NCBI RefSeq assembly: GCF_000317085.1 | Contig: NC_019702.1 | Location: 2,758,394 to 2,822,393 of the forward strand | Length of the DNA: 64,000 bases | Direction: 5' to 3' | Origin: Synechococcus sp. PCC 7502 | GTDB lineage: Bacteria; Cyanobacteriota; Cyanobacteriia; Pseudanabaenales; Pseudanabaenaceae | Part shown: piece by piece, positions 11,053-59,645 of the stretch | How positions within the stretch are numbered: the stretch's first letter is position 1 | How the letters are laid out: every line of letters begins with the position of its first letter | The notes under the pieces: model-generated | What the model was told of the DNA's origin: nothing | The model's input: the letters and a program-made list of their open reading frames with translations, nothing else | Databases searched by the model: none | Position numbers and translations under genes: made by a program

Positions 11053-11985
11053 ATGGACTGGGATACAGTTCGCACTAAGTTTAAGCAGGTCTGGGGATAT
11101 GATGATTTTCGTCCACCCCAAGGAGAAGTAATTGCTAATTTACTTGCTCGCCAAGACAGTATGGTGATTTTAGCAACTGGTAGTGGTAAATCTATTTGCT
11201 TTCAATTACCTGCTCTACTCCAAAATGGACTAACTTTAGTAGTCTCGCCATTATTATCGCTGATTGAAGACCAAGTTAAAGATTTACAAAGTCGTAACCT
11301 TGCTGCTGCTGCCCTCCATAGCAGTTTATCCAGCCTGGAGCGCAAACAAGTATTTAAAAGAATCTCTAGCCTCAGACTTTTATATCTTTCCCCTGAAACC
11401 CTCTTAAGTAAACCAGTTTGGGAAAGACTTAGCGATCCAGATTTAGTAATTGTAGGCATGATGATTGATGAAGCTCACTGTTTGGGGCAGTGGGGAGATT
11501 CCTTTCGCCCAGACTATCGTCGCTTAGGAGTTGTACGTTCAGCTTTAATGACCCATAAACCTGCTAGTCATGGCAATATGGCGATCGCTGCATTTACCGC
11601 TACAGCCGATCCTAAAACGCAATCTGACCTTAAGTCTTGCCTAAAACTACATACACCTCAACTAATCCGCACCAGTCCCTATCGTTCTAATTTAAGCTTA
11701 AATGTGGCGATTGCATGGACAATGGCAGGCAGAAAGAGCCAAACCTTAAAATTTATTCAAGCTCACAAAGGACAATCTGGCTTAATTTATGTTCGCAGTC
11801 GCCGTGATACTGAAGAGTTAGCAGAATGGCTCAAGGGGCAATCTTTTCTGACTTCGGCATATCATGCAGGCTTACCCAGTTCGGAAAAACGAGAAATTGA
11901 ACGTAAATGGTTAGTTGGCGGCTACCCCTTTGTGATCGCAAGCTCCGCATTTGGGCTGGGAACTATCATACAATTGGAAGTGTAA
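11053..11985 (+). pseudogene. recQ: recQ 5' part, interrupted by the 47.7 kb element
   Basis: Encodes the first 303 residues of a RecQ-family 3'-5' DNA helicase: Walker A ATGSGKS (41-47), DEAH at 139-142, the FTATAD motif and the start of motif V (ASSAFGLG). After codon 303 the frame enters the element and stops within 8 codons. Motif VI, needed for ATP hydrolysis, lies 47.7 kb away at 59646-60160, so this fragment should be inactive as a helicase. Removing the element at the GGGAA core restores a 474-codon gene, so it is interrupted rather than degenerate. Confidence 0.95.
11958..11962 (+). other. attL core (GGGAA)
   Basis: This is the only stretch of identity between the two element ends. 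Serine recombinases exchange at a 2 bp crossover inside a short core, so a 5 bp shared core fits the enzyme encoded alongside. The exact crossover dinucleotide cannot be told from one integrated copy. Confidence 0.85.
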
Positions 11986-12011
11986 AATGGTTAATAAATT
12001 ATCAACAATTA

Positions 12012-13988
12012 ATGAGAATTTACGGCTGTACCAATCAAAGAGATTTAGTAGAACTACCTAATACACATCTTGAGAAAATTTACAACATTGTTTTACCTAA
12101 TTCTAGTTCTAATAAAAGAATAATTGGATATGCAAGATTAAGCAGTAGAGAACAGCATTTAGAGGGTTATTCACTAGAAGCTCAGATGATGAGATTGATC
12201 AATGCTGGTTGCAACGAAATCATATTTGATATTCAGAGTGGTCGCCAATATAAAGAGCGCGATCGCAAGGGCTTCCAAGAATTACTTAGATTAATAGAAC
12301 TTGGTCAAGTTGATGAGTTGGTTGTTGATCGGATTGATAGGTTAGGTCGATCTGTCCTGTCAATTAGGAAGGCGATCGATTTTCTTTCTGCAAAGGGGCA
12401 AAAGCTGCGATCGCTAAGAGAACAAATAGATACTGATACTGCCAGTGGTAAGTTAATGCTCAATATGCACGCTAGTCTTGCTGAATATTATTCTGATGCT
12501 TTGAGCGAAGCAGTGAAAAATGGACACCGTGGGATGAGAGAGCGCAATTCTGCATACTTTCCAATATTTGGGTACAAAGTTGAAAATCAAAAATATGTAC
12601 CCGACTATACGGAGGTTCTATGTCTAATAGATGGTCGGCAAACCTTAACTAAAGTAGATATTGCCAAGGACTTAATCAAAACTTATCTGGAATTTAGAAG
12701 TTTTCGAGCTGCCCGTATAGCGATCGCAAAAAAGTACGGAATTAATCACATTCCAGATACAGCTTGTGGCAGAGGTAGTAACCAGCAAGGGCGCGTAAAA
12801 ATGCCGATTACATCTGCTGGCTTTAGTAGTTGGCTAAATAATCCAATACTTCGGGGTCATACCTGCTATGGACGATCTGGTAAGCAACGAACTAGACACA
12901 GTTCTAAATGGGATATTCGAGTGAATACACATGAAGGCATTATGAGTGAATCAGAATATCAAGAAGTAAGCCAATTGCTCCAATGGAACGTCGATCATCA
13001 TGTTAGGCACAATGGGAAGACAAAGCCAATACACCCGCTATCTGGGTTAATTAAATGTGCAGAATGTGGTGGTACTCATCGGGTCTATTACACAATGGGA
13101 CGAGAGAAAGTCTATATGTATGGCTGTAGTAACTATGCTAACTATCGGTCATGTACTCAAAAGCAAGTAATTCAGTACAGACTAGTTGAGCCATTGGTAC
13201 TAAAAATATTATCTGAACGAGCAGTTAATCTCGCCCAACTTGCTAATACTGTTAACCCAGTACCAGAGATACCAAAGCTTCGGGAATTGCGATCGCAGTT
13301 ATTAGGATTAGAAAATCTTGGCAATAACCCTGCCCTTGAAGCTGCTAAGAGAGATTTACAACGCCAGATAGAGCTAATTCAATTTGAGCAAAAGTCCAAT
13401 GAATTAAATGCTAAGTCTGTTCACTCTCTGACTGCTGAAGTATTTGCTAATCCACTTTACTGGTCAACTTTGGATCAACAGAATAAGCAGGATATTTTTA
13501 GAGCATTGATCAAAGAAATTTTAGTTAGAGGTCAATATGTTCTAGGGGTAACTTTAAGAGATGGTCATGCTGTCCAATTTCCAGATTTGAAAGTACCAAA
13601 AGAATTGAAAGGTCACAAGATAGTAGTTGGCACTAAAGTTATAGTCTGCTCCCGTTGGGGCGATCGCAAAGAAGGCGAGGTAACTCAAATAACTTATCGC
13701 AGCAATACTGAAAGTACAAAGCGTTTAACCGTTAATTGCGAAAAAGAGACAATTTACTTTGATAGACGAACTGGTAGAGAAGTCCCACCATCTGGAAAGG
13801 TTGATAGGTATGTTGTAACAAGATGGATCGAAATTGAAACTAAAGATAAGCCAAGTATTCATTGTCCAGTTTGTAATAGCGATCGCCTCCGTAAGAATGG
13901 TCATAATCATGCTACTGGTAGGCAACAATTTGTTTGTAAGGATTGTTCTAAGCACTTCCTACTCAAACCTATTGATGAGAATGATTAA
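12012..13988 (+). CDS. Large serine recombinase (XisF-like) with a C-terminal InsA-type zinc ribbon
   Basis: 658 residues from the ATG at 12012; an upstream in-frame ATG would put the start inside recQ sequence. The resolvase domain has the nucleophile in YARLSS (Ser44) and VDRIDRLGRSV. A recombinase domain and a zinc ribbon (CAECGG ... CSNY ... C, about 348-380) follow, then a coiled coil. The C-terminus adds a small beta-rich segment and a second Cys4 ribbon (CPVCNSDRLRKNG ... CKDCSKHF, about 618-648) like the DNA-binding N-domain of IS1-type InsA. It is expected to catalyse excision/integration of this element at recQ. Its 3' end overlaps a convergent small gene by 20 bp. Confidence 0.93.
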   Translation: MRIYGCTNQRDLVELPNTHLEKIYNIVLPNSSSNKRIIGYARLSSREQHLEGYSLEAQMMRLINAGCNEIIFDIQSGRQYKERDRKGFQELLRLIELGQVDELVVDRIDRLGRSVLSIRKAIDFLSAKGQKLRSLREQIDTDTASGKLMLNMHASLAEYYSDALSEAVKNGHRGMRERNSAYFPIFGYKVENQKYVPDYTEVLCLIDGRQTLTKVDIAKDLIKTYLEFRSFRAARIAIAKKYGINHIPDTACGRGSNQQGRVKMPITSAGFSSWLNNPILRGHTCYGRSGKQRTRHSSKWDIRVNTHEGIMSESEYQEVSQLLQWNVDHHVRHNGKTKPIHPLSGLIKCAECGGTHRVYYTMGREKVYMYGCSNYANYRSCTQKQVIQYRLVEPLVLKILSERAVNLAQLANTVNPVPEIPKLRELRSQLLGLENLGNNPALEAAKRDLQRQIELIQFEQKSNELNAKSVHSLTAEVFANPLYWSTLDQQNKQDIFRALIKEILVRGQYVLGVTLRDGHAVQFPDLKVPKELKGHKIVVGTKVIVCSRWGDRKEGEVTQITYRSNTESTKRLTVNCEKETIYFDRRTGREVPPSGKVDRYVVTRWIEIETKDKPSIHCPVCNSDRLRKNGHNHATGRQQFVCKDCSKHFLLKPIDEND

Positions 13989-14127
13989 CCCTCTCTAAAA
14001 TTTCCTGCATCTGTTCAAGATTGCTGATCGACTCGTCAAAACTACACATAGACTCGACATTATCCAGAGTCTCTTCAACTAAGATTTTTAGATCAAGGTA
14101 ATCGGACTCAGTAAGCTTTATGGACAT
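13969..14127 (-). CDS. Small acidic helical protein, unknown
   Basis: 52 residues from the ATG at 14127. This ATG overlaps the stop of the pilin gene by 10 nt, so translation is probably coupled. The sequence is acidic and helical (LTESDYLDLKILVEETLDNV). A longer frame starting at 14181 exists but would lie wholly within the pilin tail. The gene is convergent with the recombinase. By position it could be a recombination-directionality factor, but nothing in the sequence shows this. Confidence 0.5.
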   Translation of the reverse strand: MSIKLTESDYLDLKILVEETLDNVESMCSFDESISNLEQMQEILERVNHSHQ

Positions 14128-16234: not shown

Positions 16235-17457
16235 AAGCTCTTCTCAATTAATTTAATTTCCTTACCAATTCGCTCTAACTCATTCCTGCGGGCGATCGCC
16301 TCTCCTGCTCTCTTGACCTCCTTGCTGTTTTCTTCCCCTATGTACTGACGCTTTACCAGTCCACTCTCAGACTGAGCTAAACTACTTTGCCTTTTAGCTG
16401 GGAATATTGCCTTATTGCTCCGATAGTAAGCCTGACGGAATTTACGCTTAGAAACTTTGCCATACTCAATCCAAACTCCGCTTTGAGCAACAGGACCAGT
16501 CGCACGAATAAAATCAGCTTTACTTTGAAGGTCTGCTAAGCGATCGTATAGCTCAATCCAGTTAGAATCCTCCTGACTAATTTCACGTTCTAGGGGTAAC
16601 TTTTCAACTGCGCTCGATGCAGGAATTGAGATACTTAACTCTTCTAAGGGCGATCGCTGCACAGGCAGGCACAACAGTTCTTCCGAATAGGTATCGACTT
16701 CTAATTCTTCCAGGCGATCCTCTTTCGACTCCCACAGGCACCTCGTCCAGTCCATCGGGAAACCTAACAACTGCGCCATCGTCTGTGGACTCAAACATTG
16801 GGAATCTGCTAATAGCCCGTTGTTCTTGAACCATGTCTCGCACTTGGTCTGCCCAGCAGGTCGGCTTCTGCCCGTGGATTTCGAGGCATTCGGGGTAGGC
16901 AATGATAAAAACCCTTTCTCTACGGTGGGGGGCTTTAAGTGCGGCTGCGGAAATAGTCTGCCATTCTGCATCGTACCCGCTTTCGGAAAGTCCCCAAAGG
17001 ACTCTATCCATTCCTCTATTGAGTAACCGATGACTGAGTAATCCTGTGGGGTTTTCGATGATGATAAACCTTGGTCGGCACTCGTTGATGACTCTGAGTG
17101 CTTCAAACCAAAGTCCACTATGTTCGTGGTCAAGTCCTGTCCTTGTACCTGCGATACTTGTACCCGTGCATGGAAATCCAACGGTCGTAAGGTCGAAGTT
17201 TCCCCTAGAACATTGGTAAGTTCTGATGTCTTCGTGGATTGGTATATCTCGCCAGTGCGATCGCAGGACGGCTTGGGCATCGGGATCGATTTCGACAAAC
17301 TGCGTGGTTTTAATTCCACCAACTTGCTCGGCTGCGAGGGTAAAGCCTCCGATTCCTGAAAATAAGTCAAGGTGTCGCATTGTTCTAGGGGTAAAGATTT
17401 TTGGATCGCCCGGGGATTTTTGCCATGACCAGCTAATTGTTCTAGGGGATAGTTCAT
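16225..17457 (-). CDS. 410-residue methyltransferase-companion protein that overlaps the cytosine methyltransferase in another frame
   Basis: Residues 150-250 carry FPKAGTMQNGRLF, SLPTPNAS and QLLGFPMDWT, a pattern familiar from phage and cyanobacterial proteins found with C5-cytosine methyltransferases. The C-terminal 120 residues (LADLQSKADFIRATGPV, WIEYGKVSKRKFRQAYYRS) form a separate basic domain outside the overlap. The methyltransferase gene (16604-17380) lies wholly inside it on the same strand, two bases out of frame. Both frames carry meaningful motifs, so I annotate both. It starts 4 nt inside the HNH gene. Confidence 0.65.
   Translation of the reverse strand: MNYPLEQLAGHGKNPRAIQKSLPLEQCDTLTYFQESEALPSQPSKLVELKPRSLSKSIPMPKPSCDRTGEIYQSTKTSELTNVLGETSTLRPLDFHARVQVSQVQGQDLTTNIVDFGLKHSESSTSADQGLSSSKTPQDYSVIGYSIEEWIESFGDFPKAGTMQNGRLFPQPHLKPPTVEKGFLSLPTPNASKSTGRSRPAGQTKCETWFKNNGLLADSQCLSPQTMAQLLGFPMDWTRCLWESKEDRLEELEVDTYSEELLCLPVQRSPLEELSISIPASSAVEKLPLEREISQEDSNWIELYDRLADLQSKADFIRATGPVAQSGVWIEYGKVSKRKFRQAYYRSNKAIFPAKRQSSLAQSESGLVKRQYIGEENSKEVKRAGEAIARRNELERIGKEIKLIEKSLCK
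16604..17380 (-). CDS. C5-cytosine DNA methyltransferase
   Basis: 258 residues. Motif I DLFSGIGGFTLA (5-16), motif IV GFPC with catalytic Cys71, motif VI ENP (109-111), motif VIII-like HRRERVF and a motif X-like C-terminus RTVVPACAAIALRRV. All core motifs are there but the target-recognition region is short. No restriction enzyme partner is evident unless it is the adjacent HNH protein; an orphan protective or regulatory methylase is more likely. It is nested in the 410-residue ORF. Confidence 0.9.
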   Translation of the reverse strand: MRHLDLFSGIGGFTLAAEQVGGIKTTQFVEIDPDAQAVLRSHWRDIPIHEDIRTYQCSRGNFDLTTVGFPCTGTSIAGTRTGLDHEHSGLWFEALRVINECRPRFIIIENPTGLLSHRLLNRGMDRVLWGLSESGYDAEWQTISAAALKAPHRRERVFIIAYPECLEIHGQKPTCWADQVRDMVQEQRAISRFPMFESTDDGAVVRFPDGLDEVPVGVERGSPGRIRSRYLFGRTVVPACAAIALRRVKYLNSCIERS

Positions 17458-17816
17458 CGATCTACCTCCAGTCTTAGCTGACCTTCACGTTCTTTCTTAA
17501 GTCGCTTTTTCATTGCCATTTGCCCAACGTCATACCTGAGATGGCATGGTTTACATAATGCTCTTAAGTTCGAGCGATCGCAATTTTCAGGATGATGATC
17601 TAAATGAGCAACCGTTAAAGTAAATCGCTGGGGATGATCTATCGCCTCGGCAAACTCGGAACTCTGCATATCCCAGTCTGAGAAAAACTCTGCCCATGAT
17701 TCACCATTCCTACGGCATTGTTTACCGCATTCCTCGCATTTCCAGGCAACTGCTTGCTTAATCTCAGTTGCGATCGCCTTCCAGTCATCTGGGTATAGTT
17801 TTCGATTCATCGGCAT
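17454..17816 (-). CDS. HNH endonuclease-like protein
   Basis: 120 residues from the ATG at 17816, chosen because GGAGG lies 8 nt upstream. Zinc-binding CEECGKQC, the HNH core AHLDHHPENCDRSNLRALC and CKPCH are all present. A nicking/cutting enzyme of the HNH superfamily, next to the methyltransferase. It could be a restriction partner or a homing-type nuclease. Confidence 0.82.
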   Translation of the reverse strand: MPMNRKLYPDDWKAIATEIKQAVAWKCEECGKQCRRNGESWAEFFSDWDMQSSEFAEAIDHPQRFTLTVAHLDHHPENCDRSNLRALCKPCHLRYDVGQMAMKKRLKKEREGQLRLEVDR

Positions 17817-18667
17817 AGCAAGCTCCTCCACTCTGGGTGTTTTTCAAAAATCTGCTCTGCAAATTCATCAGGTAGTCTTGCCCTAGCAAATTCGTAATCT
17901 CGCATTTTTATTGCTGCTGAAATACTCTGCTCTAATCTCCAAATATCTTCAGCAATTAAATCTCTCGGCTTCGGCTTTGTTTTTTTGCTCTCCTCATAGA
18001 GCGATCGCCAATGATTTCGGTCTTTTTCTAGGCATTTAGCAGCGTAAGCATCGGCATTGGATATTTCTATCCCTTTTTGCTTTTCAACGGTCTTAATGAT
18101 GAATTTCTTGAGTTCTTTATCTGGATCGTCCTTGGTTTCTTGGGCGATCTCTTGATCGTTTTTGACTTCAACCTCATGATTTTTTAATTCAAAATTTTCA
18201 TTTTTCGATCTGATCTGATCAGTCTTATTAGTCTTAATAGTCTTAGAGTCTTCCGAATCCTCTCCTAGAGTGGCTTTAGAGGGTATCACTGTGCTTTTTT
18301 GATCAATCTCTGTGATCTTTTGATCCTTTTGCGTGATCTTTTGATCAATCGTGTGCTTTTTTGATCCAGAGTGTGACTTTTTGATCACACCTGTGCTTTT
18401 TTGATCACACTCTTTTTTTACCGTAACTACTACCGTGTCTAGTTGAAGGGTAATATAGCCTTCATTGCAAAGTGTCTTTAAAGCTCTACTGCACGTTGAT
18501 CTATTTATTTTTAATTCAGTTGCTAACTCGGTTACATTGATCCGCATCGTGCGATCGCCAAATGGATCGAGAGTTCTTAAGTGGTAAAGAACGACAATCT
18601 CAACAGGTTTAAGGTTTTGTCTCACTTCTGTCCACTCTTTATGTTCTAGGGGATAAAACTTACTCAT
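17807..18667 (-). CDS. Winged-helix DNA-binding protein (replication-initiator-like) containing iteron-like repeats
   Basis: 286 residues. The N-terminal 90 residues are a winged helix (VVLYHLRTLDPFGD, TELATELKINRSTCSRALKTLCNEGYI). The middle (about 85-130) is a low-complexity Lys/Gln/Thr linker made by six 20-21 bp DNA repeats. A charged helical C-terminus follows (about 180-286). N-terminal winged helix plus central DNA repeats is the plan of some phage and plasmid replication initiators (compare lambda O). The family is not identified. Confidence 0.7.
   Translation of the reverse strand: MSKFYPLEHKEWTEVRQNLKPVEIVVLYHLRTLDPFGDRTMRINVTELATELKINRSTCSRALKTLCNEGYITLQLDTVVVTVKKECDQKSTGVIKKSHSGSKKHTIDQKITQKDQKITEIDQKSTVIPSKATLGEDSEDSKTIKTNKTDQIRSKNENFELKNHEVEVKNDQEIAQETKDDPDKELKKFIIKTVEKQKGIEISNADAYAAKCLEKDRNHWRSLYEESKKTKPKPRDLIAEDIWRLEQSISAAIKMRDYEFARARLPDEFAEQIFEKHPEWRSLLCR
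18291..18420. repeat. Six iteron-like direct repeats inside the winged-helix gene
   Basis: TTTTGATC-centred units lie at GATC positions 18301, 18322, 18343, 18363, 18383 and 18403, so the period is 21, 21, 20, 20 and 20 bp, about two helical turns. Because 20 is not a multiple of 3, the same DNA is read in different frames (DQKST, VIKKS, GSKKH, DQKIT). This points to conservation of DNA rather than protein. Confidence 0.75.
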
Positions 18668-20373: not shown

Positions 20374-20814
20374 CTACATTTTTTGTTTTAATTTGTGCCA
20401 ACGCATATCGCCTTCTTTGCATAGATGCCTAATGACAAATTCTTGATCGTCCAGATAAGCACCTACGCCGAACGACTCAGCAGCATTTTTAAAAGCATCG
20501 GCGATCGCTCTCTCGATTGGAGTGCCACGGCTCATGTCATTACCCTTACTAGATAATTGTTGAATCTTGGCATTGCCCACAGCTTCCCTACTTATCCCAG
20601 CGATCGTTAATTTACATCGGACATAGCAATATTCATCTAGGTAATTTGGATCACTGTAACTCACTTGCCAATCTGGACAAGCTTGATGAAGGCGTGATCT
20701 GATTTTTTGCCAACGGATATAAACCCATTGCTTCCCACCTGGTAACTCTCTAATTTCATGATCTGCTGCTGGGAATGGCTGTTTTAATTTTTCGGTAATT
20801 TCCGTGATTGTCAT
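20374..20814 (-). CDS. Rad52/Rad22-like single-strand annealing protein
   Basis: 146 residues. The KLKQPFPAADHEIR opening, a YVRCKLTIAGISREAVG strand block and the signature TPIERAIADAFKNAAESFGVGAYL match the Rad52-type annealing fold used by phages and mobile elements. It should pair complementary single strands during recombination. No 5'-3' exonuclease is adjacent; xseA/xseB lie 5 kb away in the same element. Confidence 0.82.
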   Translation of the reverse strand: MTITEITEKLKQPFPAADHEIRELPGGKQWVYIRWQKIRSRLHQACPDWQVSYSDPNYLDEYCYVRCKLTIAGISREAVGNAKIQQLSSKGNDMSRGTPIERAIADAFKNAAESFGVGAYLDDQEFVIRHLCKEGDMRWHKLKQKM

Positions 20815-22350: not shown

Positions 22351-22935
22351 CTAGGCTGCGACTGGCTCAATTGGTACTAAAGCCTTCCTATCTGCTTCAG
22401 ACTCTCTACGCACTGGCAACATCTCACGGGTTCCGTTTGCATCTCCCAAGATTGGGTTATTTTGCATAAAACCGATGATCTCCTCTAGTTGCTTTTTCTC
22501 CTCTGCGGTCTTTCTAGGTCTCCAGTCAAACTTAACTGATTTGTATGGATCGCCTTTACCGTTTTGGTGACTCTGGAAAGAGATAATAAATATGCCCTCG
22601 GCTGGTTCACCAGATTCCATTAACTGGGTAATCTTTTGGTTAAATTGGCTTAAGCTTCTGGTCTTAATGTAAGACACACAAACTGTATTGCTTGGTAAGA
22701 TTTTGCAGCTAGGGGCAGGAATAAAAAATATCTGTAACCAGTCTGTGTCTCTGGTTTTGCCCAAGCTACCGAACATTTGCTTTACACCAATGATCGAGAT
22801 TTCCATTGAGTTACCTAGATATTCATCATCACTGATCGCTATCTGTCCAGCTTGGCAATTTAACCGTACTGAATAGGGTTGTTGTGGTAGAAAGATAGAG
22901 TCTTTGGGTTTGGTTCCGAATACTTGTAATGACAT
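22351..22935 (-). CDS. Probable DNA-metabolism protein of the recombination module, unknown
   Basis: 194 residues, mixed beta/alpha. QAGQIAISDDEYLGNSMEISIIG near residue 30 and KFDWRPRKTAEEKKQLEEIIGF toward the end. Its place before Gp157 and Rad52-like genes suggests a single-strand DNA binding or replication accessory role; the sequence alone does not show it. Confidence 0.55.
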   Translation of the reverse strand: MSLQVFGTKPKDSIFLPQQPYSVRLNCQAGQIAISDDEYLGNSMEISIIGVKQMFGSLGKTRDTDWLQIFFIPAPSCKILPSNTVCVSYIKTRSLSQFNQKITQLMESGEPAEGIFIISFQSHQNGKGDPYKSVKFDWRPRKTAEEKKQLEEIIGFMQNNPILGDANGTREMLPVRRESEADRKALVPIEPVAA

Positions 22936-23006
22936 AGTTTTAGATTTTCTTTATTGGGTTTACTACCTGAGCTTTTAGAGACATCACAGGCTTTGGTCAT
23001 TCAGAA

Positions 23007-23312
23007 TTAGAGATTATTAGCGATCTCTTCGATTACTCCGTCCATCTTGATAGCCTGACCTGTGGTACATCTGCCCCACCAAGTACCGTAATCATTTTCT
23101 AAGATTGGCTCTTTATGTTCTCTCAGCTTTTCCGCTAACCAGTTAGAGATCGACCACCATTCAAAGATTTCTCTATAATGGTCTGTTTCATCATCGTTAA
23201 GATTTTCGATGTCTTCGATAGAGAATAAAGAACTTTCAAAACACTTTTCGATTAGTGAACTTTGGCAGAGATAAATATCTTCTCTAACAATCCTTTCAGT
23301 CATTTCACACAT
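23007..23312 (-). CDS. Small acidic protein, unknown
   Basis: 101 residues, acidic, with SIEDIENLNDDETDHYREIFEWW. No family recognised. 11 bp downstream of the next gene, same transcript. Confidence 0.5.
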   Translation of the reverse strand: MCEMTERIVREDIYLCQSSLIEKCFESSLFSIEDIENLNDDETDHYREIFEWWSISNWLAEKLREHKEPILENDYGTWWGRCTTGQAIKMDGVIEEIANNL

Positions 23313-23323
23313 GGTTATTACCT

Positions 23324-23620: not shown

Positions 23621-23713
23621 GGTATTTATTGATTAAGTAAATTGGGTTTACTGCCTCTCTGACTCTGACCAGTCTTTGAGGCTCTTTTTTTTGCTCATTT
23701 CTGAACTGATTTA

Positions 23714-23742
23714 AGTATAGCAAATTGTACTATTAAAAGCAA
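23714..23742 (-). promoter_or_regulatory. Sigma-70-like promoter, copy 1 of a shared module
   Basis: Minus strand TTGCTT, 17 bp, TATACT. The spacer contains TTAATAGTACAA. The same promoter with nearly the same spacer is found at 24186-24214. Confidence 0.6.
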
Positions 23743-46838: not shown

Positions 46839-48698
46839 ATGCCCTCTCTAATCCCATCTCTCAATAGTTGCGTAGCTCGAATGACATCAGGCGAAAAGCG
46901 GCTTGCGGTGAGACTAGAACAAAAACTAGATGACGATTATCTAATCTGGTATGACGTACCTATTGGCAAAAAGCAACTGCACCCCGATTTCATCATTCTG
47001 CACCGATTGAGAGGCTTATTGGTACTAGAAGTTAAAGACTGGAAAATCGACACGATCAAAAATGTCACTAGAGCTAAATGGACGATCGCCGATCGCAATA
47101 CCAACGAACTTAAGCAAGTAGATAATCCCCTAGAACAAGCAAGAAAGTATGCCCTTCATGCTGTGAAATTACTTGAACGTGATGCCGAGCTAGTCCATCC
47201 TCTTAAAAATGCCTACGCTGGCAAGTGTATAGTTCCATATGGCTATGGTGTTGTGTTTACCAATATCTCAAGAGCAGTTTTTGATAAGCAAGGCTTAGGT
47301 GAAGTTATTGAGTCAAATTTGGTAATCTGCAAAGATGAAATGCTTGAAAGTGTTGATGAAGTGGAGTTTCAACAAAGACTATGGAATATGTTCCCGTACC
47401 ATTTCGATCGCACCCTAAGCCCGCATCAAGTTAATCGCATCCGTTGGCATATATTTCCAGATATTGCAATTCAGCCGTCGCTATTACCAGAGCCTGAAGA
47501 GGATGAAGAAGTCTTACCTGTAACAATTGCACCTGACCTGATTAAAATCATGGACTTGCAACAGGAGCAACTAGCACGAAGTTTGGGTACTGGACATCGG
47601 GTAATTCATGGAGTAGCTGGGTCTGGTAAAACATTGATTTTGCTCCATCGTTCTCAGTATTTAGCAGAGACGAGTAACAAACACATTTTGGTACTGTGCT
47701 ATAACATTTCCTTAGCCACAAAACTAAGACAGATACTCAGAGCCAAGGGTATCAATCAAAATATAGTTACAGTTCAGCATTTTCATCGCTGGTGTGCGGA
47801 AATGTTGCGACTGTACCAAGTACCTTTACCCGAGACCAAGCATCAAGGTAATGAATTTGTAAAGCAGTTGGTTAACCAAGTTGTTCTAGGGGTGGAGCAA
47901 AAGAAAATACCCAAAGGCAAATATGGTGCAGTGTTGCTAGATGAAGGGCATGATTTTCAACCGACTTGGTTCAATCTGATTGTGCAGATGGTTGATCCAG
48001 AAACTAATTCATTATTAGTGCTGTATGACGATGCTCAAAGTATTTATGAAAAGCGAGAACGGGGTAAATTTAGTTTTGCCAGTGTAGGCATACAAGCTAG
48101 GGGTAGGACAACCATCCTCAAGCTTAATTACCGCAATACTGAAGAGATTTTGAGCTTTGCCTATGAATTTGCTAAAAATATCATGCAGCCGACTGAAGAC
48201 AGTGAAGAAGATGCACCCGTTCTTATCAAGCCCGAATCTGTAGGCAGACATGGGGCAAAGCCGACATTTACCCGTTTGTCTAGTTTTTCAGCAGAGACAA
48301 GACATATATGCGATCGCATTAAGGACTATAGAAACAGAGGTATAGCATGGAATGATATTGGCATAATCTACCGTACTGACTTCATGGGGCGATCGCTTAG
48401 CCGTGCTTTGAAAAATGCTGATATACCTGTGGAATGGTTCAACGCAGATAGCCATAGTAAAAACTACCACCCCGAAGCACAAAGCGTGAAATTATTGACG
48501 ATGCACAGTAGCAAAGGTTTGGAGTTTCCAGTGGTGTTTATAGCAGGTATTGGATTTATGCCGATGCAGTCCCAGGCGATCGCTGACGAGACAAGATTGC
48601 TCTATGTTGCCATGACTAGAGCTACTGAATATTTGGAATTGACTTGCGATCGGGATTCGGTATTTGTAAATAAATTGGAGAAGGTGCTTCAGGGTTAG
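46839..48698 (+). CDS. NERD-domain UvrD/Rep-like helicase
   Basis: 619 residues. NERD nuclease-related domain (about 18-140: GKKQLHPDFIILHRLRGLLVLEVKDW), Walker A GVAGSGKT (about 260), Walker B LLDEGHDF, and the C-terminal SF1 motifs LLTMHSSKGLEFPVVFI and LLYVAMTRA. 8 bp after the WYL gene, so one operon. Nuclease plus helicase suggests a defence or DNA-processing enzyme. Contains two copies of the GTTCTAGGGG element motif. Confidence 0.85.
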   Translation: MPSLIPSLNSCVARMTSGEKRLAVRLEQKLDDDYLIWYDVPIGKKQLHPDFIILHRLRGLLVLEVKDWKIDTIKNVTRAKWTIADRNTNELKQVDNPLEQARKYALHAVKLLERDAELVHPLKNAYAGKCIVPYGYGVVFTNISRAVFDKQGLGEVIESNLVICKDEMLESVDEVEFQQRLWNMFPYHFDRTLSPHQVNRIRWHIFPDIAIQPSLLPEPEEDEEVLPVTIAPDLIKIMDLQQEQLARSLGTGHRVIHGVAGSGKTLILLHRSQYLAETSNKHILVLCYNISLATKLRQILRAKGINQNIVTVQHFHRWCAEMLRLYQVPLPETKHQGNEFVKQLVNQVVLGVEQKKIPKGKYGAVLLDEGHDFQPTWFNLIVQMVDPETNSLLVLYDDAQSIYEKRERGKFSFASVGIQARGRTTILKLNYRNTEEILSFAYEFAKNIMQPTEDSEEDAPVLIKPESVGRHGAKPTFTRLSSFSAETRHICDRIKDYRNRGIAWNDIGIIYRTDFMGRSLSRALKNADIPVEWFNADSHSKNYHPEAQSVKLLTMHSSKGLEFPVVFIAGIGFMPMQSQAIADETRLLYVAMTRATEYLELTCDRDSVFVNKLEKVLQG

Positions 48699-53026: not shown

Positions 53027-53536
53027 CTATCTGTTACTCTTTCTAAAATCCCAAGGAAACTGATAATTTCCACCATCCCAGACCCCGACTTTATTAGCTT
53101 TAGCTCTATCTTCAGCTTGCCTAATTTGTTCACGATGCGGGCAACCTTGGGAGTATTGCTTGTACTCATAGGCGTAACCTTGCCTGACTACCTCGGCATT
53201 AATGAAAGTATTACCTAGAAATAATTCTGCTACTGTTCGCCCATAGCGATCGCTACCCGTTCGACTTACCTCTACCTTGCCACCCTTGAGAAGCTGCTTC
53301 ACTAAATCGGTTGCCTCCTTGCCGTATGGCTGCGCTGGTTTATTTCCATGCTTAATTTCGGGGGCATCAACACCGCAGAATCTCACTCTCTCGATAGTTC
53401 CACTGCAACTTACTTTGATCGTGTCTCCATCATTTACCTTGATGACATCACACGTTCTAGGGGTAGCTTGCACAGGAATAGCCAAGATTACCAATGCGAT
53501 ACTCAATGACAATGGGATAAATGCCAAATATTTCAT
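53027..53536 (-). CDS. Secreted thermonuclease (SNase family)
   Basis: 169 residues. Signal peptide (FIPLSLSIALVILAIPVQA). VIKVNDGDTIKV, RVRFCGVDAPEIKHG, QPYGKEA and DRYGRTVAELFL hold the catalytic Arg/Glu/Arg and calcium Asp. Degrades DNA/RNA outside the cytoplasm. It begins next to a terminator that belongs to the upstream operon. Confidence 0.92.
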   Translation of the reverse strand: MKYLAFIPLSLSIALVILAIPVQATPRTCDVIKVNDGDTIKVSCSGTIERVRFCGVDAPEIKHGNKPAQPYGKEATDLVKQLLKGGKVEVSRTGSDRYGRTVAELFLGNTFINAEVVRQGYAYEYKQYSQGCPHREQIRQAEDRAKANKVGVWDGGNYQFPWDFRKSNR

Positions 53537-53562
53537 AAAAAAACCCTAGTATAGACTAGGGC
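53537..53562 (-). terminator. Rho-independent terminator of the exported-paralogue operon
   Basis: On the minus strand CCCTAGT/ACTAGGG (53544-53561) with a 4 nt loop, followed by seven T. It sits between the last exported paralogue and the thermonuclease. Confidence 0.75.
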
Positions 53563-53584
53563 ATAAATTGCTAACTAATTGAGA

Positions 53585-54187
53585 TTACAGACCAAATTGC
53601 TGGGATGCTTCGTATGCCACGCCATTTGAGCAAAGAGGTGGGAATGAATCAGTAGTAGGCACAAAGTACAAGACATCATTTACTCTAAATCCAGCAGCAG
53701 GAGAGACTGGGAAAGTACTTGATGGTCTTAACGTCAAGGTTCCGCAAGCATCAGTGGTAATCTGTCTGGTTCTTGGGGTAATTACACCAACTTCAGCAGC
53801 ATAGTTAGGTGTTTGTCCTACCAATACAACTTGACCTCTAGGGGTCTTGAAATTGGCTGTAGCAGGAATGTCTAATAAACCATTTACACAACGAGGTATG
53901 GCACGAGTTTCTAGGGTATTAGGGTCAATAGTCGATCCACCAAGAACCACATAGCTAACTGTTTGATTACTAGAAGCAGGAGCAACGGTAATTAAGCCAC
54001 ATTGGTTAGCTAGTATGCGTCTGGTGACAGTTCCATCATTTAGCTGGACATTGTACTGAGTGCTTGGACTTAGACCAGAAACGTATGCCCTATTGGATGA
54101 GTCTTTAGTTACGGTAATTTCAGCATTAGCAGCAAGCGGGGCGATCGCTGAGAGTAGAGCCAAACTTAGAATTAGTTGATTTTTCAT
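53585..54187 (-). CDS. Exported protein, paralogue 3 of 3
   Basis: 200 residues with a signal peptide (MKNQLILSLALLSAIAPLAANA). Mature part is beta-rich and shares with the next two genes TVTRRILANQCGLITV, the PRCVNGLLDI block and the TRQITTDACGTL block. Shared Cys suggest a disulfide. Probably a cell-surface or periplasmic protein. No known family recognised. Confidence 0.7.
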   Translation of the reverse strand: MKNQLILSLALLSAIAPLAANAEITVTKDSSNRAYVSGLSPSTQYNVQLNDGTVTRRILANQCGLITVAPASSNQTVSYVVLGGSTIDPNTLETRAIPRCVNGLLDIPATANFKTPRGQVVLVGQTPNYAAEVGVITPRTRQITTDACGTLTLRPSSTFPVSPAAGFRVNDVLYFVPTTDSFPPLCSNGVAYEASQQFGL

Positions 54188-54227
54188 GGTTTTAGATAAG
54201 TAGATAAGTATGTCAGTAACTAGTTAA

Positions 54228-54848
54228 TTAACCACCAGCACCTTGGGGAATAAACTTGGGCAAGTAGAGAACATTTTGCTCACCAACCCTACGGCAGATA
54301 GGAGCAGCTTCGATATTTAGACCGATCACAGGTTGACCAACACCATTAACCCTGACTTGGTTGCCAATAGTAAAACTAGATGAGTTTGCGACTCTAACTA
54401 CACCACAGGCATTAGTAGTAAATTGTCTGGTTCTTTTCCCAGTTACTACTACGTCAATGGCTAAGTTTGGAGTTTGAGCAACTAAAACTACAGTGTTGGT
54501 TGTAGTTCGGAAGTTTCCCGTTGGGTTAATATCCAAAACTCCATTAGTACAAGTAGGAATAGTCCCAACTTCCAATGAACTTGGATCAACTGTCGCCCCA
54601 CCTTGAGGGGTAATGGAGGTTGGTAATTCAGTTGCAGCCAAGGGGCGCACAACCAGCAAGCCACACTCATTAGCCAATACTCTGCGAGTGACAGGAGTAT
54701 CTCCAAACTCAATCGTTAGTGGAGCTTTTGGAATACCAGTGCGGACATAGACCCTACCATCAGTATCTCTAGTCACCGTTTCAGCTATTGCAGACTGGCA
54801 AGTGATTCCTGACAGTACAACCAAACTTAGAATTATTTGATTTTTCAT
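54228..54848 (-). CDS. Exported protein, paralogue 2 of 3
   Basis: 206 residues, signal peptide ILSLVVLSGITCQSAIA. Shares TRRVLANECGLLVVRPLAATELP, PTCTNGVLDINPTG and PICRRVGEQNVLYLPK with paralogue 1. The close match of these blocks shows recent tandem duplication. Confidence 0.72.
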   Translation of the reverse strand: MKNQIILSLVVLSGITCQSAIAETVTRDTDGRVYVRTGIPKAPLTIEFGDTPVTRRVLANECGLLVVRPLAATELPTSITPQGGATVDPSSLEVGTIPTCTNGVLDINPTGNFRTTTNTVVLVAQTPNLAIDVVVTGKRTRQFTTNACGVVRVANSSSFTIGNQVRVNGVGQPVIGLNIEAAPICRRVGEQNVLYLPKFIPQGAGG

Positions 54849-54870
54849 CTTTTTACTTAGTTAGTTGAGA

Positions 54871-55503
54871 TTAGGTAACACCTTGCTGACCCGAATTGGT
54901 TTTAGGCAAGTACAAAATATTTTGTTCACCAACCCTGCGGCAGATAGGTGGAGCTTCGGTACTCAGTCCATTAACTAGCGTATCTGAACCACCTTGAACC
55001 TTCAAAACACCGCCTATATTGAAACTAGCTGAATTTACAACTCTGGCAACTCCACAGGCATTAGTAGTAAATTCTCTAGTTCTTTTACCAGTGATCGATA
55101 CATCAATCGCTAAGTTAGGCTGTGCACCAACAATAACCACACTATTATTTGTAGTTCGGAAGCTTCCCGTTGGAGTGATACTAAGGACTCCATTAGTACA
55201 AGTTGGGATAGCAGAAACTGGCAGTGAGTCAGGTAAAATCGATGGACTACCAGATGGCACAATAAGCTGTGGTAATTCAGTTGCAGTCAGTGGACGCACA
55301 ATCAACAAACCACATTCATTAGCCAATACTCGCCGAGTTACTGGACTGCTATTAAAATCTATGCTTACTGGAGTTCTTGGAGTTCCAGTCCTTACATAGA
55401 CTCTGCCATCTGGGTCTTTAGTTATCGTTTCAGCTATTGCAGATAGTGGAGCGATCGCCCCGAATATAGCTAGAGAAGAGAGAATTAAATTGAAAGCTTT
55501 CAT
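54871..55503 (-). CDS. Exported protein, paralogue 1 of 3
   Basis: 210 residues from the ATG at 55503 (MKAFNLILSSLAIFGAIAP), chosen for the signal peptide and AGGAAAGG upstream; the longer frame to 55548 lacks support. Same blocks: VTRRVLANECGLLIVRP, TREFTTNACGVARV, RRVGEQNILYLPK. Confidence 0.72.
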   Translation of the reverse strand: MKAFNLILSSLAIFGAIAPLSAIAETITKDPDGRVYVRTGTPRTPVSIDFNSSPVTRRVLANECGLLIVRPLTATELPQLIVPSGSPSILPDSLPVSAIPTCTNGVLSITPTGSFRTTNNSVVIVGAQPNLAIDVSITGKRTREFTTNACGVARVVNSASFNIGGVLKVQGGSDTLVNGLSTEAPPICRRVGEQNILYLPKTNSGQQGVT

Positions 55504-55561
55504 TTTTCCTTTCCTAGAATTAATATTAGTTCTAAGAAAGATCACCAATCTTAATATAAAG

Positions 55562-55623: not shown

Positions 55624-55788
55624 ATGCAATTACCAAATTGTCCTAAATGTGGGATTAATGAATTAAAAGTAGAGACACCAGATAATCACGGGGTAATTGC
55701 TGACTTTTCCTACTGGCAATGTCAGGCTTGCGGATGGTTTTCACCGATTTATTATTATCCACATGAACAGCCAGAACTTGAAGATTAA
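55624..55788 (+). CDS. Small zinc-ribbon protein
   Basis: 54 residues from the ATG at 55624 (MQLPNCPKCGINELKV), with a second pair CQACGW: a Cys4 ribbon. The frame is open to 55567 but that part overlaps the hairpin. Unusual plus-strand gene within a minus-strand cluster; its stop overlaps the next convergent gene by 4 bp. Confidence 0.55.
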   Translation: MQLPNCPKCGINELKVETPDNHGVIADFSYWQCQACGWFSPIYYYPHEQPELED

Positions 55789-56825
55789 CCTTCATCCCCT
55801 AGAACAATTCTTTTAATCTTGGCAGCTTGCGATCTCATGGCAGACTTTTGGCGAGTTACATCTAGTCTGGTCCGATCGAGTCCATTCTGAAGGGCAATAA
55901 AACTATTAGTATCACCCTCGCCCAAGCGGTAAGCTACTTCTATTAACTTAAAACGACTAGCTTCACGGTTAGCGATCGCCTCGGCAATATCAGCAGCTAC
56001 TTTAACTTGATCGAACTGGATCAGACTTTGAATAACAGAATCCTCTATCCTTGCTTTGACATCTAGCTTAGCCTTTTCGATTTCAGCTATCCGTAATTGC
56101 AAAGTGGCATTATTCTGAGCAGCAGTCTGGTCTTGTCTGGCATTACCTCCAAGATTAGTAATTACGCTACTAAGAGTGGTACCAAGTCCTAATACTGTAT
56201 TTGGCACTGCTAGGAATGGGACGAAAGGCTGTAACTGCGTAAAGATGTTACCTTGGGCTGCTTGGGCAATGGACTTAACATTAGCTTCATTCTGTTGGAT
56301 TTGTTGATCTAGTGCTTTTAGTGTTGGGCTATTAGCGATCGCTCTCTCGGTCAAAAGTTTTATACAAGCGGCTGATGAGTCAAGGCATGGTAAATCAGCT
56401 TTCAGCAATTCAAACTCACCTTGCTTATCCATTTTATCTGCTAATTCTCGTGGGGTAGATATATCTGGATCACTCTCTGTATCTGGATTCGCACCATCAT
56501 TTACCTTGATACCTTGCGGGATTTTACCAGTGGGCTGCAGTTTGCCAGGCGTAATTAATTTACCCGTTCTAGGGGTAGTAATTACTGGCTTAACTGAATT
56601 AGGTCTACTTACATTAGGAGCAGTTGGTGTACCGGGGGCTTTCCCCGTGGGGGTAGTAGCAGCTTCATCAACATCCTTACCATCGTCATAGCCTTGGTCT
56701 GTGTCGTCACTTTTTGGGGCTGGTTTTTGTTGGGCGATCGCTGCCTGAGTTAATTGCAAGCACGAGATCATACTGAAGCTTATTGTCAGACTGACCAGCA
56801 AGTTTAATCCTTTTAACGACTGCAT
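55785..56825 (-). CDS. TolC-like exported coiled-coil protein
   Basis: 346 residues. Signal peptide (LLVSLTISFSMISCLQLTQAA), a Pro/Thr-rich linker (about 40-125), then a helical region (about 160-345) with SPTLKALDQQIQQNEANVKSIAQ and FKLIEVAYRLGEGDTNSFIALQNGLDRTRLDV, like one half of an outer-membrane efflux (TolC) repeat. Only one half is present, so it may be a truncated or oligomeric form. Its 5' end overlaps the HlyD-like gene by 119 nt. Confidence 0.7.
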   Translation of the reverse strand: MQSLKGLNLLVSLTISFSMISCLQLTQAAIAQQKPAPKSDDTDQGYDDGKDVDEAATTPTGKAPGTPTAPNVSRPNSVKPVITTPRTGKLITPGKLQPTGKIPQGIKVNDGANPDTESDPDISTPRELADKMDKQGEFELLKADLPCLDSSAACIKLLTERAIANSPTLKALDQQIQQNEANVKSIAQAAQGNIFTQLQPFVPFLAVPNTVLGLGTTLSSVITNLGGNARQDQTAAQNNATLQLRIAEIEKAKLDVKARIEDSVIQSLIQFDQVKVAADIAEAIANREASRFKLIEVAYRLGEGDTNSFIALQNGLDRTRLDVTRQKSAMRSQAAKIKRIVLGDEG

Positions 56826-57744
56826 TATATGGACTCCTAACTGTAGTAAGTGTTTTTAACTGGGTTTCAACCTCTGCCATCTTGCCGTTGAGGGTAGCAA
56901 TTTGGAATGTACGCTCTTGCTCTTGTTTTTGGTATTCGGCAAGCGATCGCTGATATTGAGCCGCTATCTGATTTTGGTCTTGCTCAAACTTGGCAATAGT
57001 TTCAGAATAACGATATTCATCGTATGCCCTGCGGTCTTTAGCAGCTTGGTACTTACCCTCGGCAAGCTCTTGATCGGACTTAGCCTTATCTAAATCTGCT
57101 TGATATTCAATTAGTTTTTGCTGCTCATGGATTAGTACCGCTTGGGGTAAATCTCGCTCGTCAAAAGTTCCCAGTACATCGATCTTGCGCTGCTGAAGCT
57201 TTACTTTTTCCTCGGCTGCTTTGACCTTGAGGATTTGATTATTAATCGTAGCGATCTCTTCGGCATAGGTGATGCTAGGTAGTTTGATTGGTACTTTTAC
57301 TGGCTTTGGTGCGAGTGGGGGAATAGAGGCAATATTCAGACGAGCGATTGAGTTAGTTAGTGCAACTTTCTGAACGGTCAATCTATCTCTTTCCTTGTCA
57401 CGATCCGCTACTACCTGCTCCTTCTTCACCTCATCCCCTTGCTTTACCTTGAGGTCTTCGGGACTAGAAACATTTACAGTCAATTTTAATAATCTTGGGT
57501 CTGACGTTCTAGGGGTAACTATTTCTGGTTCGACTTCAACCACTGGCGGCGTAGATTCTTGGGCGATCGCTTTCTGCATATTGGCAACCGTGCTACCAAT
57601 GCCGAAACCACTGGCAACAATCGGCAATATTACCCATGCTGTCGCCAACCATTTACCAATACGGCTTGGCTGATACCGTTTAGCTATCTCCTGTTGTTCA
57701 GGCAATTCAAACCCCAGAGCTAATAACTGTTGATTATTCATCAC
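56707..57744 (-). CDS. HlyD-like membrane-fusion protein
   Basis: 345 residues. A single membrane helix near 30-55, a lipoyl-like strand (LKVKQGDEVKKEQVVAD), a long coiled-coil hairpin (about 130-290) and a second half-lipoyl part VRSPYNAVVKRIKLAGQ. This is the periplasmic adaptor layout of type I secretion and efflux systems. No ABC transporter or RND pump gene is next to it. Confidence 0.75.
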   Translation of the reverse strand: MMNNQQLLALGFELPEQQEIAKRYQPSRIGKWLATAWVILPIVASGFGIGSTVANMQKAIAQESTPPVVEVEPEIVTPRTSDPRLLKLTVNVSSPEDLKVKQGDEVKKEQVVADRDKERDRLTVQKVALTNSIARLNIASIPPLAPKPVKVPIKLPSITYAEEIATINNQILKVKAAEEKVKLQQRKIDVLGTFDERDLPQAVLIHEQQKLIEYQADLDKAKSDQELAEGKYQAAKDRRAYDEYRYSETIAKFEQDQNQIAAQYQRSLAEYQKQEQERTFQIATLNGKMAEVETQLKTLTTVRSPYNAVVKRIKLAGQSDNKLQYDLVLAINSGSDRPTKTSPKK

Positions 57745-58765
57745 TACGCACCTTTACGATTACACGACCTTGAGAAATAAACTGATCACCTAGTACTGGC
57801 AATAAATCCGACTTACGAGCATTAACCAGTTTGATTTGACCACCGAAAATTGAGATTGGGGCATACCGTTCTACTAATAGCGGTGCCTTTGCCTCATTTA
57901 AGTCATCGACAATTAAAGAACCAGTGACATAGGCATTATTTTGCAGTTGGTTTAGCCAATCGACACCCAATATATTTTCTAGCTCTACCTCTTTAGAAGC
58001 GATCGCCACAGGATCACCAAGTCGAGTCTCAACGCTAACTGGTTTAATTTGACTGGAAGGATCATTACCGATCTGATACAGCCTACGCTTACTATCTTCG
58101 GCAATTACTGAGTTCAAACCTCCTGAGCTAATCACCTTAAACTCTTCATCTACAGCTTGATTCGTGATGACATGATTACCTTTAACCTTAATGAAAACTT
58201 GCTGAGTTGAGCCATACCGCTTAAACATCTCACTTGCTGTACCAGCATCTCTAAAGAAGCTTCTAGCAAAATTCTCCGTAACTCCGCCATTGCTGATTAG
58301 ATTGCAACTGATTATTAGAATTGTGGTAGCGATCGCTAAAATCCAAAATTCAGCCGAGCTTCCTGCTCTGATCCGATTATTGGGATTCCCCGGTATTACC
58401 AATCTTTTCGTACTTGGATAAAAAGCACCCACACCAGCTTTAGTAAAAGTGTCGGCAAACCAGCCCATAAAAAAGCCTAAGTTAATAGCTGCCCACCATT
58501 GCCAATTTAGAAATACCAACATCGGAGCCGTGGCGATCGCTATGATTCCCGAAGCCATAAAACTATGACTAACTGACCTATGGGCATATTTAGTTTCGAG
58601 CCATGCTGCTAATGGATAAAATGCTCTGCCCGTAAATGATTTTGTCGTGTCAATGTCTGGAAGTTGTGAAGCTATAGCAGCTACCCCTAGAACAAGGGGA
58701 TTAGCCGTACCGATTGCTAAAGAAGTTGTACAAGCAGCGATCGCCGCATGGGTGACACTCATCAT
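57734..58765 (-). CDS. YdjM/LexA-bound-type membrane metal-dependent hydrolase
   Basis: 343 residues. The N-terminal 180 residues match the YdjM family (SQLPDIDTTKS, AHRSVSHSFM, GWFADTFTKAGV), with several membrane helices and conserved His/Asp. The C-terminal part (about 180-343) is a soluble domain not usual for the family. Overlaps the HlyD-like gene by 11 nt. Confidence 0.8.
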   Translation of the reverse strand: MMSVTHAAIAACTTSLAIGTANPLVLGVAAIASQLPDIDTTKSFTGRAFYPLAAWLETKYAHRSVSHSFMASGIIAIATAPMLVFLNWQWWAAINLGFFMGWFADTFTKAGVGAFYPSTKRLVIPGNPNNRIRAGSSAEFWILAIATTILIISCNLISNGGVTENFARSFFRDAGTASEMFKRYGSTQQVFIKVKGNHVITNQAVDEEFKVISSGGLNSVIAEDSKRRLYQIGNDPSSQIKPVSVETRLGDPVAIASKEVELENILGVDWLNQLQNNAYVTGSLIVDDLNEAKAPLLVERYAPISIFGGQIKLVNARKSDLLPVLGDQFISQGRVIVKVRSDE

Positions 58766-58770
58766 AGTTT

Positions 58771-59622
58771 TTAGCCTTTACTACCTAACTTTGTGGATTT
58801 TTTATTAATCTGCATGAAGAAGACTCTGAGCGTAATTGCAAGCACCGTAAAGATTCCACCGATGATATACAAGCTCTTATCGCCCAGCCCCAGCCCAATA
58901 AAGCGCAGGATTGCCACCAGTGACACAGCAGCTATCAAGAATGGAGTGCCATCGACATATTCCGTATGATCACCCGCTTCCCCATCACCTAAGCCCAGAA
59001 CCTCTTCCCGTACTGCCCTCTTAGCTAAGTAAGGATTACCCCCAGAACGTTCTTGAAGCTCTGCAAGTTTCGAGTTATCAACATTTACCCCAAGCTCCTG
59101 AGCTTCAGCAATCATCAGGCTTCTGAGTCTATCTGTTTGAATTGATTTCAACTCTGTGCGGGGCATCTTTAAAAAAATATCTCTCCTTGGGGGACGGGTA
59201 GCAAGCAGAAAAATTACACCGCCATCGGCGCAGATTTCTTCTAGCCAATATCTAAGGCTACTGGGGTATCGGTGGGCATTATCACAAATTAGGATCGGTC
59301 GTGGCTCAGTTAGTAAAACCTTTGCGATCGCATCCCGAAGTTGATCCGCAGTGAGTGGTATATCTTTCCCAACACTATTAACTCTGACAGTATCTACTCC
59401 AAGTTCCTCGGCAATAACTGTAAAAGTTTTCTTGGCACTGCCTCCGTAGTCAGCGATCGCTACGGTATATCCCCTAGAACGCAACTGATTCGCCACATTT
59501 TCGGCAAGGGTAGTCTTCCCCCCGCCATCATCCCCTAGAACAAGAATTGACTGCCCTTCTACTAGGGCTGATACTGCTCTTTGGGTGTCTTCGTGTCTCA
59601 GGTCTATATCCAGTTTGTGCAT
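58771..59622 (-). CDS. AAA ATPase (TniB/GspA-like) with two C-terminal membrane helices
   Basis: 283 residues. Walker A LGDDGGGKTT (30-38), Walker B PILICDNAHR, sensor-like LATRPPRR, then two hydrophobic helices (FLIAAVSLVAILRFIG and LYIIGGIFTVLAITLRVFF). The fold resembles TniB and GspA ATPases. Its ATG lies only 19 bp from attR, so its promoter probably lies outside the element or is formed on circularisation. Carries two perfect and one near copy of the element motif. Confidence 0.8.
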   Translation of the reverse strand: MHKLDIDLRHEDTQRAVSALVEGQSILVLGDDGGGKTTLAENVANQLRSRGYTVAIADYGGSAKKTFTVIAEELGVDTVRVNSVGKDIPLTADQLRDAIAKVLLTEPRPILICDNAHRYPSSLRYWLEEICADGGVIFLLATRPPRRDIFLKMPRTELKSIQTDRLRSLMIAEAQELGVNVDNSKLAELQERSGGNPYLAKRAVREEVLGLGDGEAGDHTEYVDGTPFLIAAVSLVAILRFIGLGLGDKSLYIIGGIFTVLAITLRVFFMQINKKSTKLGSKG

Positions 59623-59640
59623 CTATACGTTTGCTAGACA

Positions 59641-59645
59641 GGGAA
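59641..59645 (+). other. attR core (GGGAA)
   Basis: Right partner of the 11958-11962 core. Immediately beyond it the recQ frame resumes with INKSDVRW. Confidence 0.85.

Follow-up and report, generated by a model that had tools for sequence, protein, structure and literature searches.

Synechococcus sp. PCC 7502 (Pseudanabaenaceae) carries its recQ helicase gene in two parts separated by a 47,683 bp element, which raises the question of whether the element governs recQ as a reversible DNA-level switch or whether recQ serves as the attachment site of a mobile element. The locus was analysed computationally within a stretch of 64,000 nucleotides (G000:C3:2758394-2822393, hereafter the window, to which the coordinates below refer) of the PCC 7502 genome (G000), which comprises 3,583,735 bases in 3 contigs and has been reported as 3.58373 Mb with 40.6% G+C (PMC10669429). 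The original prediction from this sequence described an excisable element built like those in nifD, fdxN and hupL. As argued below, we consider it probable that the unit is a plasmid-like integrative element inserted at an attachment site inside recQ, whose excision is plausible, and not a switch programme of the host.

The break in recQ and the adjoining recombinase

The gene was found to be interrupted at 11958/59641, where GGGAA stands at both ends (left core, attL, 11958..11962; right core, attR, 59641..59645; both + strand) and bounds the 47,683 bp unit. The 5' part (11053..11962, +) comprises codons 1-301, two bases of codon 302 and the core, and continues into the element as a truncated frame of 310 residues ending at 11985, while the 3' part (59641..60160, +) runs from the third base of codon 302 through the stop. 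When the flanks were fused via GGGAA, the resulting 1425 nt contained a single, terminal stop (474 codons plus stop) and read GLGINKSDVRW at the junction; the predicted exact in-frame split was thereby borne out. The break, at codons 302-304, falls within what we take to be RecQ motif V, so that this motif is whole only after joining. The original claim that the RecQ motifs remain intact on both sides was therefore incorrect, and residue 307 is moreover S in PCC 7502 where the family has P, as judged by alignment with intact relatives. At the break site itself, every one of the 16 aligned relatives with an intact gene carries the motif of the joined gene. Searches of the window for tRNA and tmRNA genes, and for Rfam families at the gathering threshold, gave no match. 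Dyad symmetry around the core was weak (10/22 for attB and 11/22 for attP, with background P values of ~0.04 and ~0.01, respectively, before allowing for several centres) and was not used as evidence.

Comparison with a sister strain, as originally proposed, revealed the corresponding empty site. In G006, a genome of the same genus, recQ is uninterrupted and collinear, its contig passing from window positions 9004-11960 straight to 59642-60151 in an alignment of 80% identity. The insertion within recQ is not a chance arrangement.

Directly inside the left end and reading inwards lies a large serine recombinase gene (12012..13988, +; the start codon is uncertain, and protein searches were run from 12108), as had been predicted. 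Its product contains Resolvase, Recombinase and zinc-ribbon domains and scored 413.7 bits on the NCBIfam XisF equivalog model NF041201 (fdxN-element excisionase; cut-off 375). In a plasmid collection, the three best rows for this protein were annotated xisF (29-32% identity). The C-terminus is extended by ~140 residues that include an IS1-type zinc-binding domain; on plasmid B of Trichormus variabilis, a stretch weakly similar to this extension (E 1e-4) occurs in a separate open reading frame (ORF) directly after xisF. As the sole query, the PCC 7502 recombinase yielded no relative in collections of genome contigs and viral contigs, and an alignment of five recombinases used as query detected 12 loci in the genome contigs and two weak loci (26% and 24%) in the viral contigs. 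Among phage records, distant recombinases alone were matched, in 284 records, the best 15 of the 284 all lying under 27% identity. The unit thus shows short direct repeats flanking a split coding gene that is whole once joined, together with a xis recombinase close to one end, the features that characterise interruption (xis) elements. Because the recombinase belongs to the XisF family, homology, beyond a shared design, underlies the likeness to the nif, fdxN and hupL elements.

The original remark that no recQ-interrupting element of this kind was known to its author is answered by the literature. A survey of xis elements in cyanobacteria (Hilton, Meeks and Zehr, 2016; PMC4874684) lists in its Table 1, among the non-heterocyst-forming cyanobacteria, one element in recQ (reference Pse6802_0098), and a passage of the same paper describes an interruption element in a DNA helicase gene of PCC 7502 that has a xis gene at its beginning, in the same direction, and holds no transposase. 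Taking the two passages together, we read them as referring to one element; in that reading, the PCC 7502 recQ element is already known and was reported in 2016. What stands of the predicted kinship with the nifD, fdxN and hupL elements is a site-specific and in principle excisable element with exact gene restoration and XisF homology, and what falls is its novelty. The table row and the helicase passage give neither the anatomy and cargo of the element nor its sister site and relatives, which are provided here.

Insertions at the same codons and related elements

XisF-type recombinases (E <= 1e-60) were detected in 17 of 388 genomes of the class, PCC 7502 included; separately, 1 of 42 genomes was positive in the family of Pantanalinema sp. 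GBBB05 (G107, a metagenome-assembled genome, MAG) and 7 of 63 in that of Nodosilinea sp. FACHB-131 (G248). recQ was found beside the recombinase at 2 of 22 loci (G107 and G248), and in a second set of 21 loci, some of them repeated, at 4 loci from three genomes, the third being Leptolyngbyaceae MO_188.B28 (G389, also a MAG). In Nodosilinea, both recQ halves lie on one contig and one strand (C35:78612-77704 and 2595-2068), 75,109 bp apart, and share the core CATGGG, through which they join in an open frame reading AFAMGISKSNTRW. In Pantanalinema, recQ residues 3-304 are followed by the recombinase on C73, and residues 308-473 lie on C14; in MO_188.B28, for which the search covered the 3' side, residues 302-473 stand ~30 bp from the recombinase in an open frame. 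PCC 7502 and Nodosilinea have open frames for the recombinase and for each recQ half, and both recQ parts are also open in Pantanalinema. The Nodosilinea and MO_188.B28 recombinases exceeded the XisF cut-off, and that of Pantanalinema fell just short of it (363.4 vs 375). As GGG is common to the two complete cases, PCC 7502 and Nodosilinea, the crossover probably occurs at the GG of the core.

The two complete elements share a backbone. Among the 54 ORFs of 80 or more residues in the PCC 7502 element, 15 have homologues in the Nodosilinea element, and apart from a single swap these 15 proteins keep one order along both elements, from recombinase to AAA ATPase. PCC 7502 and Pantanalinema have the recombinase on the 5' side of recQ, in the reading direction of that gene, and Nodosilinea and MO_188.B28 have it on the 3' side, in the opposite reading direction; the element of Nodosilinea is accordingly inserted the other way round from that of PCC 7502. 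The Nodosilinea element encodes a ParA-type ATPase. It also carries a recA that appears complete and a gene for RNase H (L100:14817-15905 and L100:8231-8734), and one of its ends holds two tandem XisF-type recombinase genes that are 57% identical (L098:2635-5514). In a first recombinase tree, the four recQ rows (PCC 7502, Pantanalinema and two of Nodosilinea) fell in one supported clade together with G340 and G099; in a larger tree, with MO_188.B28 added and G205 left out, PCC 7502 and Pantanalinema were unresolved on long branches. A single origin of recQ targeting is accordingly not claimed.

Within the order, the 3' part of recQ was matched in 36 of 38 genomes (E <= 1e-15), the remaining two being 76% and 77% complete. 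It lay in a short frame separate from the 5' part in PCC 7502 and in G020, and G035 has a shorter frame at a contig edge. Six rows with a short recQ frame, plus two or three further rows, supplied nine stretches for examination, and among these only Pantanalinema proved to be an insertion at the PCC 7502 site. Not counted were G044, G068 and G105, which have frame changes instead; G061 and G193, which match only from residue 120 and residue 42, respectively; G176, which is cut by the contig end; and G139, where recQ matches throughout. Apart from these, the recQ of G033 (L034, G033:C2) aligned over 593 columns against 471 query residues, apparently owing to an in-frame insertion of ~120 residues, and the recQ matches of seven genomes of the same family (L009, L010, L011, L015, L016, L020 and L024) cross one TAA, which may be a premature stop close to the C-terminus.

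A second kind of insertion was encountered in G020, which belongs to the same family and another genus. Here recQ is split ~25 bp further on by 9.7 kb (L031, G020:C14:48000-63724) carrying two tyrosine recombinases and a small DUF6262 gene, a layout that we take to be Tn554-like, and the flanks abut at DTR|WVLH. In Pantanalinema (L083, G107:C14), two tyrosine recombinases likewise lie upstream of the recQ 3' part, and the right ends of the G020 insertion and the Pantanalinema recQ insertion both read CTATAGATAAC. Given these tyrosine recombinases and the G020-like right end, the recQ of Pantanalinema may hold two insertions. With XisF-type and tyrosine recombinase insertions close to each other, recQ motif V has been hit by two unrelated recombination systems.

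Relatives of the AAA ATPase at the right end were found in 61 of the 388 class genomes (E <= 1e-25), and YdjM adjoined it in 29 of the 30 AAA loci fetched. Automatic flank joins of these 30 loci were used only for the genes beside the ends and not for cores: for PCC 7502 they offered TTTG, a chance join that scored one residue longer than GGGAA and was rejected, and for Nodosilinea they gave no true join, its recQ flanks being assigned to other ends. The XisF-type recombinase and the AAA/YdjM module occupy opposite element ends in G013, G012 (on two contigs), G011, G260 and G272. In all six genomes scanned for it, four of these (G013, G011, G260 and G272) and also G099 and G350, the frame entering the recombinase end belongs to the YifB family (comM; TIGR00368), with the TIGR00368 cut-off exceeded in five of the six. 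Five genomes share a break at profile position 302-304 of 499, upstream of the recombinase in L038, L068, L069, L075 and L077; the break of G011 lies at position 343. By eye, comM-like sequence also follows the AAA side in G013, G012 and G011. In the plasmid collection, YdjM matched 75 records and the AAA protein 44, and several cyanobacterial plasmids carry the two adjacent; among phage records the AAA protein had no match. From these arrangements, the PCC 7502 element appears to belong to a cyanobacterial family that pairs a terminal XisF-type serine recombinase with an AAA-ATPase/YdjM module at the opposite end.

We also assessed whether the separated halves have begun to degenerate. Between PCC 7502 and G006, the ratios of nonsynonymous to synonymous substitution rates (dN/dS) were 0.075 for the 5' part, 0.089 for the 3' part and 0.084 for an intact neighbour gene by NG86, and 0.071, 0.077 and 0.056, respectively, by YN00. 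At positions where 80% or more of 15 outgroup sequences (drawn from 28 intact ones) agree, three in the 5' part and four in the 3' part were altered in PCC 7502 alone, five and two in G006 alone, and 20 and 12 in both. For Nodosilinea, dN/dS of the 5' and 3' parts was 0.028 and 0.102 against the intact gene of G173 and 0.038 and 0.117 against that of G161, vs 0.030 and 0.093 between the two intact genes; for G161, the number of private changes was set aside because residues absent from its N-terminus enter into it. These low ratios and few private changes thus reveal no sign of decay in the recQ halves of PCC 7502 or Nodosilinea, and the disabling mutations that the original prediction had named as telling against it were not encountered. 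The PCC 7502 genome gave three RecQ matches, namely the two halves and one weak match in a 528-residue frame; the second, longer RecQ present in many relatives, G006 included, was not found in it.

Gene content of the element

From the recombinase end inwards, the left third of the element contains genes related to DNA processing together with unnamed ones. Two overlapping frames, 16225-17457 and 16604-17380 (-), both match cytosine methyltransferase profiles, the latter as the N-terminal part of a C5 cytosine methyltransferase in another frame, which suggests that the methyltransferase gene is frameshifted. There follow an HNH endonuclease (17454..17831, -) with a homologue in the Nodosilinea recQ element, a winged-helix protein weakly like DnaD-type helicase loaders (17807..18667, -), a Rad52/Erf-like single-strand annealing protein (20374..20814, -) and two unnamed proteins (22351..24161, -; 22351-22935 and 23733-24161) that show 58% and 55% identity to Nodosilinea element proteins; a Gp157-like protein is also encoded in the left third.

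Next stands xseA, for the exonuclease VII (ExoVII) large subunit (25741..26961, +), which is open over 406 codons, passes the xseA model and is the only open full-length xseA found in the PCC 7502 genome. A chromosomal copy (G000:C3:2922616-2923002) retains only residues 2-128, and a copy on contig C1 (G000:C1:21155-22345) is broken by five stops. DNA around the element xseA also matches, in pieces, around the truncated chromosomal copy. In G006, which is 85% complete, xseA was seen as a 40-residue fragment only.

The middle of the element is occupied by a type III-B system. An array of clustered regularly interspaced short palindromic repeats (CRISPR; 60 repeats of 36 nt, 28128..32590, no strand assigned), whose spacers had no match among the loci compared, is followed by cas2 and cas1 (32724..33999, -), two CARF-HEPN (Csm6/Csx1-like) proteins (34702..37454, -) and the effector genes (37516..45477, -): cmr6-like, a Uma2 protein, cmr5, cmr4, cmr3 and cas10. 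An XisI-family gene (34315..34653, -; PF08869, E 8.1e-41) sits between cas1 and a CARF-HEPN gene of this system; no XisH was recognised among the 40 window ORFs scanned with Pfam, some small ORFs and the rest of the genome lying outside that scan. Beyond it are a WYL-type regulator, with Pfam scores just below the cut-offs, and a NERD-UvrD helicase, a candidate defence protein (45658..48698, +). A nuclease homologue and three related unnamed proteins (53027..55548, -) have homologues in the Nodosilinea element. The right-end module consists of an OEP-like protein (weak), an unnamed protein and the YdjM membrane protein (55785..58765, -), with the AAA ATPase (58771..59622, -) directly inside the right end. 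Among the same 40 ORFs, the scan found neither relaxase or type IV secretion genes, by which an integrative conjugative element would be recognised, nor capsid, portal, terminase or tail genes, 10 proteins having also been scanned with PHROGs.

Nature of the element and comparison with known systems

The plasmid-like reading is favoured because the AAA/YdjM end module also occurs on plasmids. Under the mechanism that we propose, XisF would recombine attP of a circular form with the recQ site, the crossover taking place within GGGAA (probably at GG), and the reaction between attL and attR, by XisF with an accessory factor, would regenerate recQ. As sequenced, RecQ is cut inside motif V and should be inactive. 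Besides a type III-B CRISPR system, the cargo includes xseA and further genes of defence type, and the choice of recQ most likely reflects the preference of the recombinase for a conserved stretch of an ATPase gene. Several points weigh against this reading: only two of the 30 AAA loci (PCC 7502 and Nodosilinea) lie beside recQ; G045 has both end modules, and no interrupted gene was recognised there; replication and transfer functions were inferred from weak similarities; the XisI-family gene could point to a regulated system of the fdxN type; and the undecayed halves of PCC 7502 and Nodosilinea fit a recent insertion and regular restoration equally.

Were recQ instead a DNA-level switch, XisF would remove the element under some condition, RecQ would be made, and the circle would be kept or reinserted. 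Such regulation would agree with the exact restoration of recQ on joining, the XisF-family recombinase and XisI-family gene in one element, the failure to find a second RecQ in the genome, and the lack of decay in either half in two lineages. We nevertheless regard it as unlikely: no XisH was recognised, related elements sit in other genes (comM/yifB), and the occurrence of the end module on plasmids speaks against a purpose-built switch. Loss of the circle after excision would also cost the cell ExoVII, since the element holds the only open full-length xseA found. PCC 7502 is, furthermore, a unicellular strain of undemonstrated differentiation, which would need reintegration after excision (PMC4874684, in the passage on such strains). 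A dead insertion, in which the element is fixed, RecQ permanently lost and the time too short for the halves to decay, would account for the interrupted state of the assembly and the intact gene of the sister G006; given the open recombinase frame and recQ halves in PCC 7502 and Nodosilinea, and the open recQ parts in Pantanalinema (both) and MO_188.B28 (3'), we hold it to be very improbable. That the split merely reflects misassembly or rearrangement has next to no likelihood in view of the exact core at both ends, the collinear empty site in G006 and the homologous element at the same codons, on one contig, in Nodosilinea; nothing was found in its favour. A bolder extension of the plasmid-like reading, in which recQ motif V is a shared site for plasmid-like XisF elements that acquired this target at least two times in opposite orientations, and in which the PCC 7502 element is reversibly controlled and trades the only RecQ for the only intact ExoVII large subunit, is offered as a decidedly speculative one, somewhat less credible than the plain switch.

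In the literature searched, no further paper linked recQ with an interruption element or with PCC 7502; in the portions seen of two papers, recQ is named as a pseudogene copy (PMC2900214) and as a transformation-associated gene (PMC11472951), in neither case as the target of an element. Nor did that literature contain the repeated targeting of recQ, the backbone common to two elements, their opposite orientation, the relatives in comM/yifB or the situation of xseA. A single table entry of 2016 has become a recurrent pattern: in four cyanobacterial lineages recQ is interrupted at the same codons next to an XisF-type recombinase, two of these elements have a backbone in common, and relatives break comM/yifB, mostly at one place. 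The breaks offer natural attachment sites for little-studied serine integrases, and they raise the question of whether interruption elements are ever excised to restore the gene in cyanobacteria that form no heterocysts. PCC 7502 would make a clean test of this, since its genome yielded no second RecQ.

Elements inside coding genes whose developmentally regulated excision restores the gene are represented in Bacillus and Clostridium by SP-beta in spsM and skin in sigK. The PCC 7502 element resembles them in lying within a coding gene that is whole after joining, and differs in that regulated excision has been reported only for the former. With the fdxN element and XisF of heterocyst-forming cyanobacteria, it shares the recombinase family (NF041201), exact restoration of the gene and an XisI-family gene inside the element. 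Unlike the fdxN element, it occupies a different host gene in an organism that forms no heterocysts, has no recognised XisH, and combines a recombinase bearing a C-terminal zinc-binding extension with a plasmid-like backbone and CRISPR cargo.

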